Origin: an uncultured Pelagibacteraceae bacterium
GTDB lineage: Bacteria; Pseudomonadota; Alphaproteobacteria; Pelagibacterales; Pelagibacteraceae
NCBI GenBank assembly: GCA_902607525.1
Contig: CACLKK010000004.1
Span: forward strand, 1-44,835
Direction: 5' to 3'
Length of the DNA: 44,835 nucleotides
Below, one piece after another: positions 16,465 through 44,154 of this stretch (positions are counted from its first letter, which is position 1; the number at the start of each line of letters is the position of its first letter). The notes under the pieces were generated by a model. That model saw only the letters and a list, made by a program, of their open reading frames with translations. It was not told where the DNA came from and made no database searches. Position numbers and translations under genes: made by a program.

Positions 16465-16543
16465 ATAAATTCTCCTATTAAATTAATTTAATTGATTTTA
16501 TTCAGTGGATATAGCATTCTCCTATTTTGTTATCAAATATTTT

Positions 16544-17722
16544 ATGCCAAAATCAGTTAAAACATATTTAAAAACTGCTGCTAAAGATTATAGATCGAGG
16601 TCAGTTAACCCACCTGTAGTACGCGCATCTACAATTTTATTTAAAACAATGCAGGAGTTAAGAAAACACCAAAAAGATATAGCAAAAAAAAAGGACGTTG
16701 AATTTTGGGATTACGGAAGACAAGGAACACAAACTACAGTTCAATTACAAAAATTACTTAGAGGATTGGAAGAAGCCTATCAAGTATTTTTAACCCCAAC
16801 AGGTTTTGCAGCAGTTGCTTTATCAATAATGAGTATATGTAGACCAGGAGATGAAATATTAATTTCTGATGGAGTTTACAGACCAACACAAAAAATTACA
16901 GATGATTTGCTTAAAGAATTCAAAATAAAAGCTGTTTGGTATAATCCAAATAATTTTGAAGATTTTAAAAAAAAAATAACAAGAAGAACAAAACTTATTT
17001 ATGTTGAGAATCCTGGAAGTAATACTTTTGAAATGAATGATTTGGGAAAAATAGTTTCTTTGGCAAAAAGTAAAAATATATTTACAGCGATTGATAATAC
17101 TTGGGCAACAGCATATTTTTTTAAACCTTTAAAATTAGGTTTTGATATATCAATTACATCTGCAACTAAATATTATTCTGGACATTCTGATGTTATGGCT
17201 GGAACTGTTGCTGTTAATAAAAATGCTTATGATAAAGTTTGGTGGTACAACCACGTGTCAGGTTACAGATTGTCAGCTGATGATGCTTATTTAGTTATAA
17301 GAGGTTTAAGGACTTTAGATATAAGATTAGAAAAACATCAAGAAAATGCAAAAAAAATTATTAATTTTTTAAAAAATCATAAAAAAATATATAAAATATT
17401 ATATCCTTACAAAACCTCATCAAGGGAATTTAAACTATTAAAAAAATATTATTCAGGAGCTTCTGGTTTATTAAGTGTAATAATAAAAAGTAAAAGTAAA
17501 AATTCAGTATACAAATTTGTTAATTCATTAGAACTATTCGGTATTGGCTATAGCTGGGGTGGCTTTGAAAGCCTCGCTGTTTATACTGACCCAGTAGAAT
17601 TAGGAGTAAGGCGCTACTTTAAATTGGAAAAAAATGAGCATCTGGTTCGTTTACATATCGGTCTTGAAGATCCAAAAGATTTAATTGAAGATTTAAAAAA
17701 GTCTTTAAAATTCATCAAATGA
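16544..17722 (+). CDS. metC: Cys/Met-metabolism PLP-dependent enzyme, cystathionine beta-lyase-like
   Basis: DYGRQGTQTTVQLQKLLRGLEEAYQVFLTPTGFAAV, YVENPGSNTFEMNDL, IDNTWATAYFFKPLKLGFDISITSATKYYSGHSDVMAG (PLP Lys context). MPKS start at 16544 preferred over 16505. Confidence 0.9.
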   Translation: MPKSVKTYLKTAAKDYRSRSVNPPVVRASTILFKTMQELRKHQKDIAKKKDVEFWDYGRQGTQTTVQLQKLLRGLEEAYQVFLTPTGFAAVALSIMSICRPGDEILISDGVYRPTQKITDDLLKEFKIKAVWYNPNNFEDFKKKITRRTKLIYVENPGSNTFEMNDLGKIVSLAKSKNIFTAIDNTWATAYFFKPLKLGFDISITSATKYYSGHSDVMAGTVAVNKNAYDKVWWYNHVSGYRLSADDAYLVIRGLRTLDIRLEKHQENAKKIINFLKNHKKIYKILYPYKTSSREFKLLKKYYSGASGLLSVIIKSKSKNSVYKFVNSLELFGIGYSWGGFESLAVYTDPVELGVRRYFKLEKNEHLVRLHIGLEDPKDLIEDLKKSLKFIK

Positions 17723-18948
17723 TTAAAGAAAAGTTTTTTCCAAGTAACACAGCTCTTTTTACACTTATTTCAGCATGTCTAATAGTTGCGGTATTTATGG
17801 GACTCCGTATGGTCTTTGGATTATTTACGGATTTTTTTGTTGAAGACTTACAGTGTACAGTTACTGAGTTTGGGTTGGCAATCGGTTTACAAATGTTGAT
17901 GTGGGGTATGTTCGCACCAATCTTTGGAGCGTTAGCAGACAAAATTGGAAGTGCAAAAGTAACAATAATCGCAGCTGGTTTTGTAGGACTAGGAATTTAT
18001 TTGCTTTATTCAGGACCAAATACAGGAATATTTTTTCAAATTAACCTTGGTTTATTAATTGGAATTGGTTTAGGTGGAACGGCAATAAGTGTTCAGATTG
18101 GAGCGGTAGGAAAACATTTCCCAAATAAAACTAGAGGTATGGCTATAGGAATTGTAGTCGCTATGGCATCTATAGGTTATTTTTTTTCTCCTATATACAC
18201 AAAATTTGCTTTATCCACTTTTGGCTGGGAAAAAACACTAAACACATATTTGTACTTTGTTTTATTTGGAATAATTGCAGCAATGTTTCTACGCGAAGTT
18301 AAGAAAGAAAAGAATATAAATAACAACAGTCAAACAGATAATCAAACACTTGTAGAAGCTTTAAAAGAAGCATTGAACCACAAAGGCTTTATACTTTTAA
18401 CACTTGGTTTTTTTGTATGCGGCTTTAATATAACTTTAGTTTCAGCACACATACCTATGTACATTCAAGAACGTGGCTTTGAAATATGGACTGCTGCTGC
18501 GATATTATCTTTGATAGGTCTTTTTAATGTTTTTGGAACATTAACATTTGGTTATTTATCAGGAAAGTATAGTAAAAAAATATTATTAAGCATTTTATAT
18601 TTTGCACGTGGAATTGTACTAATTTTGTTTCTAATTCTTCCTACATCAACCTACGTAGCAATAGGTTTTGGAGTGCTCTATGGATTTCTTTGGTTAGCAA
18701 CTATTCCACCAACAAATGGTGTTATTTCTCAAATTTTTGGAACAAAATATTTAGCAACTTTATATGGAATAGTTTTCTTTAGTCATCAAATTGGATCTTT
18801 TTTAGGTGCTTATTTAGGTGGATATTTTTATGATCAATATGGATCATTTGATTATGCTTGGTATCTATCAATAGTACTTTCCTTTTTTGCAGCATTAGTA
18901 CATTTGCCAATAGATGAGAGACCACTACCTAGACTTGCTACAGTATAA
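17719..18948 (+). CDS. MFS transporter
   Basis: 12-TM-like pattern; GALADKIGSAKVTIIAAGF signature; GYLSGKYSKK in the second half. Start overlaps the metC-like stop. Confidence 0.88.
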   Translation: MIKEKFFPSNTALFTLISACLIVAVFMGLRMVFGLFTDFFVEDLQCTVTEFGLAIGLQMLMWGMFAPIFGALADKIGSAKVTIIAAGFVGLGIYLLYSGPNTGIFFQINLGLLIGIGLGGTAISVQIGAVGKHFPNKTRGMAIGIVVAMASIGYFFSPIYTKFALSTFGWEKTLNTYLYFVLFGIIAAMFLREVKKEKNINNNSQTDNQTLVEALKEALNHKGFILLTLGFFVCGFNITLVSAHIPMYIQERGFEIWTAAAILSLIGLFNVFGTLTFGYLSGKYSKKILLSILYFARGIVLILFLILPTSTYVAIGFGVLYGFLWLATIPPTNGVISQIFGTKYLATLYGIVFFSHQIGSFLGAYLGGYFYDQYGSFDYAWYLSIVLSFFAALVHLPIDERPLPRLATV

Positions 18949-18969: not shown

Positions 18970-19377
18970 ATGAAAAAAATACTTGTTATGGGCTTACCAG
19001 GTTCTGGTAAAACTACTTTAGCATCAGAATTAGTTCCGTTACTAAAAGCAAAATGGATTAACAATGATAAAGTAAGAAAAGCTGCTAACGATTGGGATTT
19101 TTCTGAAACCGGAAGAACACGACAGGCAAAACGCATGTCAGATTTAGCTGATAAATATAAAAAGGAGGGAAGTTATGTCGTTTGTGATTTTATTTGTCCA
19201 ACTCCTGAATCAAGAAAATTATTTAATGCAGATATTACCATTTGGGTTGATACAATTAAAAAAGGCAGATTTGATGATACAAATGCAATGTTTGTGAAAC
19301 CTGAAAAATTTGATTTCCATGTAACTTCCCAAGATGCTAAAGTTTGGGCAGCTCAAATAGCAGAGAAAATAAAATAA
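18970..19377 (+). CDS. Short APS-kinase-like P-loop protein
   Basis: Walker A GLPGSGKTTLA; NNDKVRKAANDWDFS..GRTRQAKRMSDLADKYKKEGSYVVCDFICPTPESRKLF resembles the CysC core; truncated relative to typical CysC. Confidence 0.78.
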   Translation: MKKILVMGLPGSGKTTLASELVPLLKAKWINNDKVRKAANDWDFSETGRTRQAKRMSDLADKYKKEGSYVVCDFICPTPESRKLFNADITIWVDTIKKGRFDDTNAMFVKPEKFDFHVTSQDAKVWAAQIAEKIK

Positions 19378-19751
19378 TGTCATACGAGTGGGATAACAAA
19401 AAACCAACAGCACAAATGCTAGGTAGATGGCAACCTTTTCACGATGGTCATTATGCACTCTTTGAAGAAATAATTAAAAAAACTGGACAAGTTTGTATTC
19501 AAGTTAGAGATGTACAAGGTGTTGATGATAACCCTTTCGATTTTGAGTCAGTTAAAAAAAATATAGAAGAGATATTAAATCCAAAATATAAGAATAGATT
19601 TAAGATTATGTTGGTTCCTAATATCACCAATATTAGCTATGGAAGAGGAGTTGGGTATAAAATTGAAGAAGTTGTTCTTCCTGAAAAAATTCAGCAAATC
19701 TCAGCAACAAAAATTAGAGCAAAAATGAGAAAAGACGGAAAACTAAAATAG
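19377..19751 (+). CDS. Small nucleotidyltransferase (cytidylyltransferase-like HxGH superfamily)
   Basis: GRWQPFHDGHYALFEEII (HxGH) and ISATKIR (ISxTxxR). ATG overlaps the upstream stop (TAATG), indicating translational coupling. Track start 19344 judged too early. Confidence 0.8.
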   Translation: MSYEWDNKKPTAQMLGRWQPFHDGHYALFEEIIKKTGQVCIQVRDVQGVDDNPFDFESVKKNIEEILNPKYKNRFKIMLVPNITNISYGRGVGYKIEEVVLPEKIQQISATKIRAKMRKDGKLK

Positions 19752-19846: not shown

Positions 19847-20530
19847 ATGGAGGCTACTATGTTTTCAAAAGAACTAAATGCAAAACTAGACAAATATCAT
19901 CTACTTAACCATCCTTTTTATAAGGCATGGAATGAAGGTAAATTGACTAGAGAAATAATAAAGGATTATGCTGAGCAGTATTACCAACATGTAAAGGCAT
20001 TTCCACGTTATATAAGCGCAACGCACTCATTATGTGAAGATTTAGATAAAAGAAAAATTTTACTAGAAAATCTTCAGGATGAAGAGAAAGATGGAGCAGA
20101 CCATCCAAAACTTTGGAAAAATTTTGCAGTTGCTATTGGAGCTGATAGTAAAAAGATTGAAGATGTGAAGAAAGAAAAATTTACTTCAGAATTGATCGAT
20201 AATTTTTTTAAAAATGGTAGATCAAGTTATGCTGAAGGCTTAGCATCTCTTTACACTTACGAAAGACAAATTCCAGAAATTGCTGAAACAAAAATTAGAG
20301 GCTTAAAAAATCATTATGGAGTTACTTCAAAAGAGGGACTTGAATTTTTTGAAGTTCATAAAGCTGCTGATGTTTATCATAGAGAGGCCTGTGAAAAATT
20401 GCTTGATGGTTTGTCACCTGATGAACAAAAAAAAGCAGAAGATTCAGCTCTATCTACAGCTAAGTATCTGTGGAACTTTTTGTCAGGTATTGCTGAAAAG
20501 CATAATTTACCGCGACAGGTTGCTGCTTAA
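19847..20530 (+). CDS. CADD/PqqC-like heme-oxygenase-fold diiron oxidase; candidate self-sacrificing pABA synthase
   Basis: YYQHVKAFPRYISATHSLCED, DEEKDGADHPKLWKNF, YTYERQIPEIAETK, EFFEVHKAADVYHREA. Ligand spacing E-x6-H ... E ... H-x3-D-x2-H. Confidence 0.85.
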   Translation: MEATMFSKELNAKLDKYHLLNHPFYKAWNEGKLTREIIKDYAEQYYQHVKAFPRYISATHSLCEDLDKRKILLENLQDEEKDGADHPKLWKNFAVAIGADSKKIEDVKKEKFTSELIDNFFKNGRSSYAEGLASLYTYERQIPEIAETKIRGLKNHYGVTSKEGLEFFEVHKAADVYHREACEKLLDGLSPDEQKKAEDSALSTAKYLWNFLSGIAEKHNLPRQVAA

Positions 20531-20553: not shown

Positions 20554-20596
20554 AATTATAGATGGTTCTTTTTAGAACCGTCTATAATTGTTTTTA
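20554..20596 (+). terminator. Rho-independent terminator after the CADD-like gene
   Basis: AATTATAGATGGTTCT-tttt-AGAACCGTCTATAATT (one wobble), then GTTTTT. Confidence 0.78.
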
Positions 20597-20612: not shown

Positions 20613-21413
20613 TTGATTGCTACAAATCCATTTTCAACACTTTCTGAAACCATACCAGCTATTGCAATGCAAAGTTTTGTTATTGTTATGGGAGTGTTAG
20701 TAGTCATAGGAACTTTAGTAGATATAATTCATAAAAAAAATGTAAAATATTTTTTTGAAAACGCTAAGAAAGCTAAAAAATCAGCAAAAAAAATACTTAC
20801 TACAAGTGAAAGAACTTCAGTAATTATTAAAACAATAGCTAGTGATATAGCAACTACATCAGAACTCGGAGCAGGCAAAAGGAGAGTAGCTCATCTTCTT
20901 GGTATGTATGGAACTATTTTATTTTGGATTGGTTCTGTTGTAATGATTTTTTGTTATGCTTCACTAAATTCAAATACTCCATCAATATGGCCAATCATGT
21001 GGCATGTTGGTGCTATAATGACTGTTTTAGGAGGATCTTGGTTTTGGTTTTTCCTAAGAGTAGATGTTTATTCGGAAGCTCAACCTTGGTATAGAATTAT
21101 ACAAGCAGACCTATTCGTATTAGCACTTCTTGCTTCTTCTTTATTTGGTTTAATTTGGTCATTTTTACAATCATTAAATTTAAATGATAGATGGGACGAT
21201 AAGGTATTTTTAATTTTATTTATTATATCTAATCTTGTTTTATTTGGTGGCGTATATTGGTCCAAGTTTGCGCATATGTTTTATAAACCAGGGGCAGCAC
21301 TTCAAAAAAACTTAGCAGAAGCAGATGGTTCAAGAGATAACATGCCACCACCAGCCGATGCGCCAGAAAAATTTGGCTTGGGTATTAAGCGTGAGGCACC
21401 AAAGCACTATTAA
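20613..21413 (+). CDS. aprM: AprM-like membrane protein (QmoC/DsrM-related)
   Basis: Multi-TM protein directly upstream of aprBA with RVAHLLGMYGTILFWIGSVVMIFCYAS; TTG start. Confidence 0.82.
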   Translation: MIATNPFSTLSETIPAIAMQSFVIVMGVLVVIGTLVDIIHKKNVKYFFENAKKAKKSAKKILTTSERTSVIIKTIASDIATTSELGAGKRRVAHLLGMYGTILFWIGSVVMIFCYASLNSNTPSIWPIMWHVGAIMTVLGGSWFWFFLRVDVYSEAQPWYRIIQADLFVLALLASSLFGLIWSFLQSLNLNDRWDDKVFLILFIISNLVLFGGVYWSKFAHMFYKPGAALQKNLAEADGSRDNMPPPADAPEKFGLGIKREAPKHY

Positions 21414-21452: not shown

Positions 21453-21923
21453 ATGTCGACTTTTGTATATATGACTCGTTGCGATGGATGTGGACACTGC
21501 GTTGATATTTGTCCGTCTGATATTATGCATATTGATGAAACTATAAGAAGAGCCAAAAATATAGAACCTAATTTTTGCTGGGAATGCTATTCATGTGTAA
21601 AAGCATGTCCAAATCATGCAATTGATGTTCGTGGGTATGCAGATTTTGCTCCGATGGGTCACAGTGTAAGAGTTAGAAGAGAAGAAGAAAAAGGAACTAT
21701 CTCTTGGAAAATAAAATTTAGAAACGGAACAGAAAAAGATTTTGTTTCTCCAATAACAACAAAACCATGGGGGAAATTTATTCCAAAACTTGCTGAAGGC
21801 GACAAACCAAACCAAGGAGAAATTAAATCCCAAATTCTTTATTCTGAACCTCAAGGTTTGAATACTAAAAAAGATTTACCAACAATTGATAAAAATTCAT
21901 TTAAAAAAGGAGTTTATTATTAA
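21453..21923 (+). CDS. aprB: Adenylylsulfate reductase beta subunit (4Fe-4S)
   Basis: CDGCGHCVDICPSDIMHID ... CWECYSCVKACPNHAIDVRGYADFAPMGHSVRV. Confidence 0.97.
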   Translation: MSTFVYMTRCDGCGHCVDICPSDIMHIDETIRRAKNIEPNFCWECYSCVKACPNHAIDVRGYADFAPMGHSVRVRREEEKGTISWKIKFRNGTEKDFVSPITTKPWGKFIPKLAEGDKPNQGEIKSQILYSEPQGLNTKKDLPTIDKNSFKKGVYY

Positions 21924-23782
21924 TGCCAAAACGTAAAACTCACCATGAAGAATGCGATATACTTGTAGTAGGTGGTGGAATGGCAGGAACCGGTGCTACA
22001 TTTGAAGCGAGACACTGGGGGAGAGATCTAAAAATTATTTGTGTTGAAAAAGCAAACATTGATCGAAGCGGAGCAGTTGCTCAAGGTCTTTATGCAATTA
22101 ACTGCTATATGGGCATGCAGTGGAATGAAAATCAACCCGAAGATCATGTACGTTACGCTCGTAACGACTTAATGGGATTAGTAAGAGAGGATCTTGGTTA
22201 TGATATGGCTCGCCATGTGGATTCAACAGTTCACATGTTTGACGAATGGGGTTTGCCTATGATGAAGAATCCAAAAACTGGACGATATCAAAGAGAAGGT
22301 AAATGGCAAATAATGATTCATGGTGAAAGTTATAAACCTATAGTGGCTGAAGCTGCTAAAAAATCTGCTGATAAAATTTATAATCGAATAATGATTACTC
22401 ATTTGTTGATGGATGAAAATGATGAAAATAGAGTTGGTGGAGCAGTAGGATTCAATATGCGTACAGGAGATTATTATGTGTTTCGTGCTAAAACAGTAAT
22501 TGTTGCAGCAGGTGGAGCATCTCACATTTTTAAACCAAGAGCAGTCGGAGAAGGAATGGGAAGAACTTGGTATGCACCTTGGAGTAATGGATCTGCATAT
22601 GCTTTACCAATTGAAGCTGGTGCAAAAATGACTCAAATGGAAAACCGAATTGTTTTATGCAGATTTAAAGACGGATATGGTCCTGTTGGAGCTTATTTTT
22701 TACATTTAAAAACTTACACACAAAATGCCAATGGAGAAAATTATGAAAAAAAATGGTATGAACAAACAAAAAAATTAGTAGGTGAATATATTGATCATCA
22801 TCCAACACCAACATGTTTGAGAAATCATGCTTTTGTACAAGAAGTAATGGCAGGTGGTGGACCAATTCAAATGGTAACCAAAGAAGCTTTTCAAGATCCG
22901 CACCTAGAAACGGTTGGTTGGGAAAACTTTCTTGGAATGACAGTTGGGCAAGCAGTTGTTTGGGCTTCTCAAAATATTGATCCCAAATACACAAATCCGG
23001 AATTAACAACTTCAGAACCATATGTAATGGGTTCTCACGCAACATGTTCGGGAGCTTGGGTAAGTGGCCCAGAAGATATATCTCCACCAGAATATTTTTG
23101 GGGGTATAATAGAATGACCACAATCCAAGGGCTTTTTGGTGCAGGTGACACAGTTGGAGGAAGTGCACATAAATTTTCTTCAGGCTCTTTCACAGAAGGT
23201 CGTTTGGCTGCCAAAGCTGCAGTTAAATATATAGAAGATCAAAAAGCAAAAAATATAAAAGTTAGTGATAAACAATGCGAAGATTTTAAAAAAATTATAT
23301 ACAAACCATTAGAAAATTATACTGTTGGCAGAAATGAAATTACTGGAGGTACAGTTTCGCCAAGTTATTTTTCTCCAATTCAAGGTCTTCAGCGCCTTCA
23401 AAAGATTATGGATGAATATGTTGGAGGAATTTCAGTAAATTATATGACAAACGGAAATTTACTTAAAAGAGGCCTAGAATTATTGCAATGGTTGCACGAA
23501 GATTTAGAACATATCGGAGCTGAAGATTATCATCAGCTTATGCGTGCTTGGGAACTAAAACATCGTGCGATAACTTCACAGTGCGTAACAGAACATACAT
23601 TATTTAGAGAAGAAACACGCTGGCCAGGATATTATTATCGAGGTGATCACATGAACTTGGATGATAAAAATTGGCATTGCTTAACTGTATCTAGACGAGA
23701 TCCTAAAACTGGTAAGTTCACAATGGAAAAAATGCCTGTTTATCATATAATTGGCGATGAAGAGAAAAAAAAGGCTTCATAA
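21923..23782 (+). CDS. aprA: Adenylylsulfate reductase alpha subunit (FAD)
   Basis: ECDILVVGGGMAGTGATFEARHWG, VEKANIDRSGAVAQGLYAINCYMG, MTTIQGLFGAGDTVGGSAHKFSSGSFTEGRLAAKAA, TRWPGYYYRGDHMNLDDKNW. Confidence 0.98.
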   Translation: MPKRKTHHEECDILVVGGGMAGTGATFEARHWGRDLKIICVEKANIDRSGAVAQGLYAINCYMGMQWNENQPEDHVRYARNDLMGLVREDLGYDMARHVDSTVHMFDEWGLPMMKNPKTGRYQREGKWQIMIHGESYKPIVAEAAKKSADKIYNRIMITHLLMDENDENRVGGAVGFNMRTGDYYVFRAKTVIVAAGGASHIFKPRAVGEGMGRTWYAPWSNGSAYALPIEAGAKMTQMENRIVLCRFKDGYGPVGAYFLHLKTYTQNANGENYEKKWYEQTKKLVGEYIDHHPTPTCLRNHAFVQEVMAGGGPIQMVTKEAFQDPHLETVGWENFLGMTVGQAVVWASQNIDPKYTNPELTTSEPYVMGSHATCSGAWVSGPEDISPPEYFWGYNRMTTIQGLFGAGDTVGGSAHKFSSGSFTEGRLAAKAAVKYIEDQKAKNIKVSDKQCEDFKKIIYKPLENYTVGRNEITGGTVSPSYFSPIQGLQRLQKIMDEYVGGISVNYMTNGNLLKRGLELLQWLHEDLEHIGAEDYHQLMRAWELKHRAITSQCVTEHTLFREETRWPGYYYRGDHMNLDDKNWHCLTVSRRDPKTGKFTMEKMPVYHIIGDEEKKKAS

Positions 23783-42816: not shown

Positions 42817-44154
42817 ATGAGTTCGCCAGATACATCAAAAATTCCTAATTCTTTGCAAGAGCATTGGATGCCCTTTACATCCAATAAAGATTTTAAAGAA
42901 AATCCAAGATTAATAACTGAAGCCAAAGGTGTTTATTTAAAAAACCACCATGGAAAGACTATGATAGATGCAAGTTCAGGATTATTTTGTAATCCATTAG
43001 GTCATGGAAGAAAGGAAATTACTAATGCTGTAGCTAAACAATTAGAACAATTAGATTATGTTCAGCCCTTTCAACAAGGTTTTGGAGGATCTTTTGAATT
43101 AGCTAGAAGAATAGCAAAACACACACCAGGAAATTTAAATAGAATTTTTTATACTATATGTGGATCTACAGCTGTTGAGACTGCTATTAAAATTGTAATT
43201 GCGTATCATAAAGCAAGAGGTCAAGGACAAAGATTTCGTTTTGTAGGTAGAGAACGCGCATATCACGGAATGAATATAGGAGCTACATCAGTTGGAGGAA
43301 TGATAAATAACGTAAAAACTTTTGCTAGCGTTTTAATGCCAGGTGTTGTCCATATGAGGCATACTCATTTACCAGAACATAAATTTGTTAGAGGTCAACC
43401 AACGACAGGAGTAGAGATGGCAGAGGACCTAGAGCGTATATGTGTAAATTTTGGTTCTGAAAATATTGCAGCATGCATAGTCGAGCCAGTAGCAGGATCA
43501 ACAGGAACTTTAGTACCACCAAAAGGATATCTAAAACGTCTAAGAGAAATTTGCGACAAGCATGGAATAGTCTTAATTTTTGATGAAGTAATTACAGGCT
43601 GGGGAAGAATGGGTTCAGCCTTTGCTTCACAGGAGTTTGGAGTTACTCCTGACGTTATAACTATGGCAAAAGCTACTACAAATGGAGTTGTTCCAATGGG
43701 AGCGGTGGCAGTAAAAGAAGAAATTTATGATGCTGTAATGGATGCATCTCCAAAAGGGGCCGTAGAATTATTTCATGGTTATACCTATTCAGGAATTCCT
43801 ATTGCAGTTGCAGCTGCATTAGCCGTTCAGGATATTTTTGAAAAAGAAGATATTTTTAAAAAATCAAAAGAAATGTCCCCATATTTTTTAGATGGATTAT
43901 TTTCATTAAAAGATCTCAGCGGAGTAGATAATATCAGAGGCTATGGAATGATGGGTGGTGTTGACATGAAATTAAAAGAAAAACCTGGAAGAGCAGGGTA
44001 TGAATGCTTCAAGGCCTGTTATGAAGCTGGGGTAAATTTTAAAGCAACCGGAGACTGTTTAATTATTGCTCCACAATTTATTTGTGAAAAAAAACATATT
44101 GATGAAATAATTGAAAAATTAAGAACCGGTATTTCAAATTACATGAAAAAATAG
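42817..44154 (+). CDS. Class-III aminotransferase: omega-amino acid/beta-alanine/taurine-pyruvate aminotransferase (tpa candidate)
   Basis: LQEHWMPFTSNKDFKENPRLI, YTICGSTAVETAIKI, FVGRERAYHGMNIGATSVGG, LIFDEVITGWGRMGS, MAKATTNGVVPMGAV; divergent from tauABC and followed by ald. Confidence 0.85.
   Translation: MSSPDTSKIPNSLQEHWMPFTSNKDFKENPRLITEAKGVYLKNHHGKTMIDASSGLFCNPLGHGRKEITNAVAKQLEQLDYVQPFQQGFGGSFELARRIAKHTPGNLNRIFYTICGSTAVETAIKIVIAYHKARGQGQRFRFVGRERAYHGMNIGATSVGGMINNVKTFASVLMPGVVHMRHTHLPEHKFVRGQPTTGVEMAEDLERICVNFGSENIAACIVEPVAGSTGTLVPPKGYLKRLREICDKHGIVLIFDEVITGWGRMGSAFASQEFGVTPDVITMAKATTNGVVPMGAVAVKEEIYDAVMDASPKGAVELFHGYTYSGIPIAVAAALAVQDIFEKEDIFKKSKEMSPYFLDGLFSLKDLSGVDNIRGYGMMGGVDMKLKEKPGRAGYECFKACYEAGVNFKATGDCLIIAPQFICEKKHIDEIIEKLRTGISNYMKK

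Follow-up and report, generated by a model that had tools for sequence, protein, structure and literature searches.

What the gene just upstream of aprM encodes, and how its SAR11 host obtains p-aminobenzoate (pABA) for folate, is the question raised by the window, a 44,835-nucleotide stretch of DNA from an uncultured member of the Pelagibacteraceae (SAR11). We conclude that the gene very probably encodes a self-sacrificing pABA synthase of the CADD/PabS type, which would feed folate synthesis instead of PabA, PabB and PabC. The first-pass annotation of the window had proposed this route in place of PabABC, and the proposal is well supported by the family assignment, by residue conservation and by the finding that CADD and PabB/PabC exclude each other across the order. 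The reaction of such enzymes is already known and the family is already labelled in NCBIfam; the interest lies in a SAR11-wide split between two routes to pABA and in a hybrid pair of metal-selecting residues.

The window protein scores 305 bits against TIGR04305 (cut-off 200) and covers profile positions 1–211 of 212; this curated NCBIfam family is named 'CADD family putative folate metabolism protein'. Its best sequence matches in the PDB, at E-values of about 1e-46, are 1rcw (CT610), 8va9 ('4-aminobenzoate synthase', CADD) and 9pj4 ('4-aminobenzoate synthase'); the phmmer values of 1.2e-46 to 1rcw and 4.7e-46 to 9pj4 are far beyond chance. Entry 9pj4 appears to be NePabS (NE1434, Nitrosomonas europaea), because its sequence fits the NePabS peptides quoted in PMC11965152 and because taking Y25 as the anchor correctly numbers K159, F148, F177, Y41, Y45 and W99. 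An AlphaFold2 model of the window protein, built from 29 homologues (mean pLDDT 91.7, pTM 0.89), has a heme-oxygenase-like fold, and four CADD chains top the list of PDB matches, with an rmsd of 1.6 Å over 211 columns and TM-scores of 0.88–0.93 to 8vag, 8va9 and 1rcw.

The true start of the gene is probably Met5, at 19859, which would give a protein of 223 residues: GGAGG stands 5 bases upstream of this ATG, and SAR11 homologues begin MFS. Residue numbers given here follow the 227-residue frame counted from M1; in the shorter frame Y25 becomes Y21 and K149 becomes K145.

Table 1. Features of the window around the CADD-family gene.
Feature	Position	Strand	Basis
metC-like gene (cystathionine beta-lyase family); keeps its place upstream of CADD in the part of SAR11 to which the window belongs	16505..17722	+	TIGR01324, 373 bits; synteny
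MFS transporter; stable upstream neighbour	17719..18948	+	PF07690; synteny
Small nucleotidyltransferase-like (NMNAT-like) protein; position relative to CADD varies in relatives	19374..19751	+	weak matches; synteny
CADD-family protein, predicted self-sacrificing pABA synthase (PabS-like); 227 aa as called	19847..20530	+	TIGR04305, PDB matches, AlphaFold2 model
GGAGG, Shine-Dalgarno-like site, putatively for the Met5 start	19849..19853	+	sequence; homologues starting MFS
Tyr25 codon TAT, equivalent to sacrificial CADD Y27 and NePabS Y25	19919..19921	+	alignment; 80/80 SAR11 homologues
Lys149 codon AAA, equivalent to amine donor CADD K152 and NePabS K159	20291..20293	+	alignment; 80/80 SAR11 homologues
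Terminator-like hairpin, with a T run, in the CADD–aprM gap (16-pair stem and 4-nt loop)	20554..20589	+	
aprM-like membrane protein; neighbour, outside pABA function	20613..21413	+	weak QmoC similarity, 23.8 bits; precedes aprBA in relatives
aprB; neighbour	21453..21923	+	TIGR02060, 188 bits
aprA; neighbour	21923..23782	+	TIGR02061, 997 bits

Alignment identifies E79, H86, E139, H171, D175 and H178 as the dimetal ligands, three histidines and three carboxylates. Column by column, Y25/E79/H86/Y138/E139/K149/F167/H171/D175/H178 correspond to Y27/E81/H88/Y141/E142/K152/Y170/H174/D178/H181 of CADD and to Y25/E88/H95/F148/E149/K159/F177/H181/D185/H188 of NePabS. The first-pass annotation had matched the ligands to those of CADD, had named Y25, K149 and Y138 as equivalents and had seen F167 at the place of Y170; the alignments with CADD and NePabS bear this out, and all ten of its positions are correct when counted from M1. 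Residues Y41, Y45 and W90 further correspond to Y41, Y45 and W99 of NePabS, and Y41 to position 43 of CADD; in NePabS, Y41 is essential and altering Y45 or W99 lowers activity (PMC11965152). At the 13 positions checked, which include the ligands, Y25, K149, Y41, Y45 and W90, all 80 SAR11 loci (loci of named genomes) are invariant, and four further CADDs above the cut-off agree except at position 138 in one of them (L185). The 23 homologues that score below the cut-off all lack Tyr25, and a single one has Lys149.

The closest characterized proteins are the two pABA synthases NePabS and CADD. NePabS (~41% identity) has the same ligands, sacrificial tyrosine and lysine, Y41, Y45 and tryptophan, and likewise a phenylalanine at the Y170 position, but carries Phe148 where the window protein has Tyr138, and a nine-residue insertion that the window protein lacks after the position of H60. 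Chlamydia trachomatis CADD (CT610; ~38% identity over 211 residues) shares the ligands, the sacrificial pair and the Tyr141 equivalent, and matches most closely in structure; it differs in having Tyr170 rather than Phe, so that a strict Mn/Fe preference is not expected in the window protein, and, since the window's host is a free-living marine cell, a role in host cells would not apply.

To place the gene in its metabolic context, we surveyed 117 genomes of the order with a completeness of at least 90% and, in addition, the assembly of the window itself (G000; 770,570 bases, 50 contigs, 57.8% complete). G000 yielded no folP and no chorismate-binding gene, even TrpE, an absence that is uninformative in an assembly 58% complete. 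CADD passes the cut-off in 19 of the 117 genomes. In each of these a single chorismate-binding gene is present, its frame (~480–500 aa) being as long as that of TrpE, and PabB was found in none of them. Both of the chorismate-binding genes that were scored (L044 in G001, L231 in G009) pass the TrpE cut-off of TIGR00564. Two or more such genes, the second of PabB type, are present in 79 of the 98 CADD-negative genomes, and PabC-type matches to PF01063 (72–102 bits, adjoining pabB) are confined to CADD-negative genomes. The exclusion of CADD and PabB gives a Fisher p of 1e-11, a value that is overstated, as the genomes are related and the counts are not independent events. The consumer of pABA, dihydropteroate synthase (folP), is encoded by 38 of 38 complete genomes tested. 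In genus g3, which we take to be Pelagibacter, the second chorismate-binding gene opens a pabB-pabA-pabC operon (387, 185 and 256 aa in L222), a layout repeated in three further loci (L223–L225).

The window's own genus tells the same story. Its 23 genomes (55–93% complete) include 15 with CADD, the window's among them, and 18 with folP, and a PabB-type gene was found in 0 of 23, where about 16 would be expected from completeness if the gene were core. One genome (G520) has a partial 196-bit match, which we read as TrpE because a TrpG-type gene comes after it, as does an ORF as long as TrpD. Outside SAR11, four further genomes with CADD each have folP and zero or one chorismate-binding gene. 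A CADD-negative genome of genus g4 (G038), from which PabB and PabC were also absent in our searches, is read as having a gap in its 60-contig assembly. The exclusion in 19 of 19 genomes, the retention of folP and the lack of PabB across the genus together argue that CADD replaces PabABC in the window's group. The first-pass annotation had held that an intact PabABC would count against its proposal; none was found, a result that is informative in the relatives only, given the state of the window's assembly. As judged by synteny, CADD in SAR11 does not lie beside folate genes, and ne1434 is likewise not clustered with genes for folate synthesis (PMC11965152).

A protein able to make pABA might nonetheless have its main role elsewhere, if the cells meet their demand for pABA or folate mainly by uptake from seawater. 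SAR11 bacteria have streamlined genomes and several auxotrophies, and about nine Pelagibacter-type genomes appear to have folP and neither route, so pABA scavenging may be possible. Against this, CADD and PabBC exclude one another and the sacrificial residues do not vary; we consider such a reliance on uptake very improbable. The nine genomes (G022, G043, G044, G081, G083, G085, G093, G105 and G108; all g3, 92–99% complete), in which CADD, PabB-type and PabC-type genes were sought and not found, could reflect assembly gaps, pABA scavengers or a further route. Strain HIMB114 failed to grow in the defined media that have been published, and the natural-seawater medium used for it contained added PABA and folic acid (PMC6589437); it therefore says nothing on a need for pABA.

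It is also very improbable that the protein is an ordinary catalyst acting on some other small substrate, as PqqC, UndA, BesC and TenA do, and makes no pABA. The heme-oxygenase-like fold is common to all of these enzymes, and Pfam places the window protein in TENA_THI-4 and Haem_oxygenas_2. However, the protein reaches 49.9 bits against the PqqC profile TIGR02111, far below its cut-off of 240; PqqC stands behind CADD and 9pj4 in the PDB sequence ranking, with an E-value of about 1e-8; and the model lies 4.8 Å from PqqC as against 1.6 Å from CADD. Moreover, the tyrosine and lysine present in 80 of 80 SAR11 homologues are essentially absent from the other families, and the presence of CADD tracks the loss of PabB and PabC. 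We therefore rejected assignment to PqqC, TenA or UndA. The suggestion in the first-pass annotation that 'PqqC-like' labels would hide the gene turned out to be wrong, since TIGR04305 names CADD directly.

We infer the chemistry of the predicted pABA synthase from its homology to CADD and NePabS, for which mechanism and residue roles have been described (PMC11965152, PMC13108848); in the literature searched we found no biochemistry of SAR11 CADD proteins. The dimetal site would react with O2, and a radical would travel via aromatic residues, for which Y138, W90, Y45 and Y41 are candidates, to Tyr25. The Cα–Cβ bond of Tyr25 would then be cut, leaving a glycine, and the ring fragment would be oxidised with O2 to the carboxylate, with Lys149 as the putative source of the amine. 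Each protein molecule would yield one pABA and then be spent.

The metal on which this chemistry would run may be set by two positions. CADD has tyrosines at 141 and 170 and prefers Mn/Fe, whereas NePabS has phenylalanines at 148 and 177 and prefers Fe/Fe; among NePabS variants, F148Y proved cambialistic and F177Y showed a preference for Mn/Fe (PMC11965152). The window protein, all SAR11 homologues and three other alphaproteobacterial CADDs (L186–L188) carry the hybrid pair Tyr138/Phe167, which fits neither the Tyr/Tyr pattern of the Mn/Fe type nor the Phe/Phe pattern of the Fe/Fe type. This hybrid pair is a new observation. Because it equals the state of NePabS F148Y, the window enzyme's metal use may be flexible, with either Fe/Fe or Mn/Fe, an expectation based on the mutants of one enzyme; with F167 in place of Y170, the Mn/Fe chemistry of CADD is not simply transferable. 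In the SAR11 pair, nature provides a test case for the rule on metal choice drawn from the NePabS mutants.

The nearest named matches of the window protein come from uncultured Pelagibacteraceae genomes (89–95% identity), and related copies occur in HIMB058 and Candidatus Fonsibacter. In a CADD tree the SAR11 copies form one group with L186 as its sister (98/95 and 100/98, the latter for the placement of L186). L186, L187 and L188 are 45–59% identical to the window protein, and their genomes have zero or one chorismate-binding gene. Searched by tblastn, 50,697 phage records contained nothing matching CADD. In a TrpE tree the CADD-less genus g3 nests inside genera that bear CADD, and family f2 branches beyond them. 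The PabB (493 aa) and PabC of f2 are distinct from the g3 proteins, with which they share just 34% and 23% identity. The simplest reading, which we favour slightly, is that CADD entered once, at the root of the Pelagibacteraceae, and that g3 then lost it and gained a different pabBAC. We regard this history as a lead, since the TrpE tree draws on a single gene, has long branches and leaves forks open. With the same modest leaning, we see CADD as ancestral in the Pelagibacteraceae and Pelagibacter as having swapped it for an unrelated pabB-pabA-pabC, the Tyr/Phe pair of the lineages that kept CADD being expected to take Fe/Fe or Mn/Fe.

If this is true, a bacterial group that ranks among the most abundant on Earth obtains the same vitamin precursor in two ways, through a suicide enzyme in some lineages and a catalytic pathway in others. 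The CADD assignment itself places in several lineages of genome-streamlined SAR11 a way of making pABA that is very expensive, at a whole protein per molecule, and the distribution predicts which SAR11 groups need O2 and Fe or Mn for their folate precursor and which use chorismate. Within a limited coverage of the literature, we found no earlier report of the SAR11 CADD distribution or of the apparent switch back in Pelagibacter.

The first-pass annotation had also described an unexplained link to the apr operon. The adjacency is real; a functional link was rejected, and the relationship is positional only. In many relatives metC-MFS-CADD is intact while the apr block follows it, is inverted (L121), lies elsewhere or is absent. 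The hairpin between CADD and aprM recurs in a relative (L109) with paired base changes, and was not called in L106. In genus g2, CADD is flanked by an HU gene on one side and by a phosphoglycerate-dehydrogenase cluster on the other; g4 and g5 seem to share this setting, to judge from their ORF sizes. The apr genes adjoin CADD and share its direction, both in the window and in many relatives; the idea that CADD serves their sulfur pathway is almost certainly wrong, given the terminator-like hairpin that separates the two, the retention of CADD beside metC-MFS in relatives whose apr block is inverted or missing (L121, L130, L137 and others) and its place beside HU and serine-pathway genes in other genera.

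In apr-less relatives (L130, L137–L139, L143, L144, L155, L164, L168, L170, L174, L179 and L059) the next recognisable gene after CADD is a homologue of window positions 42817–44151, and the intervening 22 kb of the window (20600–42800), with aprMBA and other genes, therefore looks variable or inserted. Upstream, at 18970–19751, a P-loop APS-kinase-like ORF (135 aa) and the NMNAT-like nucleotidyltransferase gene overlap by a few bases; the former is often missing in relatives, and the latter lies on either side of CADD. A Fonsibacter-like genome encodes a second, distant heme-oxygenase-fold protein (L022; G009:C1:107051-107596), which scores 38 bits against TIGR04305 and is without Tyr25 and Lys149. 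Finally, six homologues (L064, L068, L063, L070, L172 and L183) have an extra residue right after the sacrificial tyrosine, HPFY-QIY-WNEGK as against HPFY-KA-WNEGK, and the insertion places a second tyrosine three residues on, or a phenylalanine in some others.
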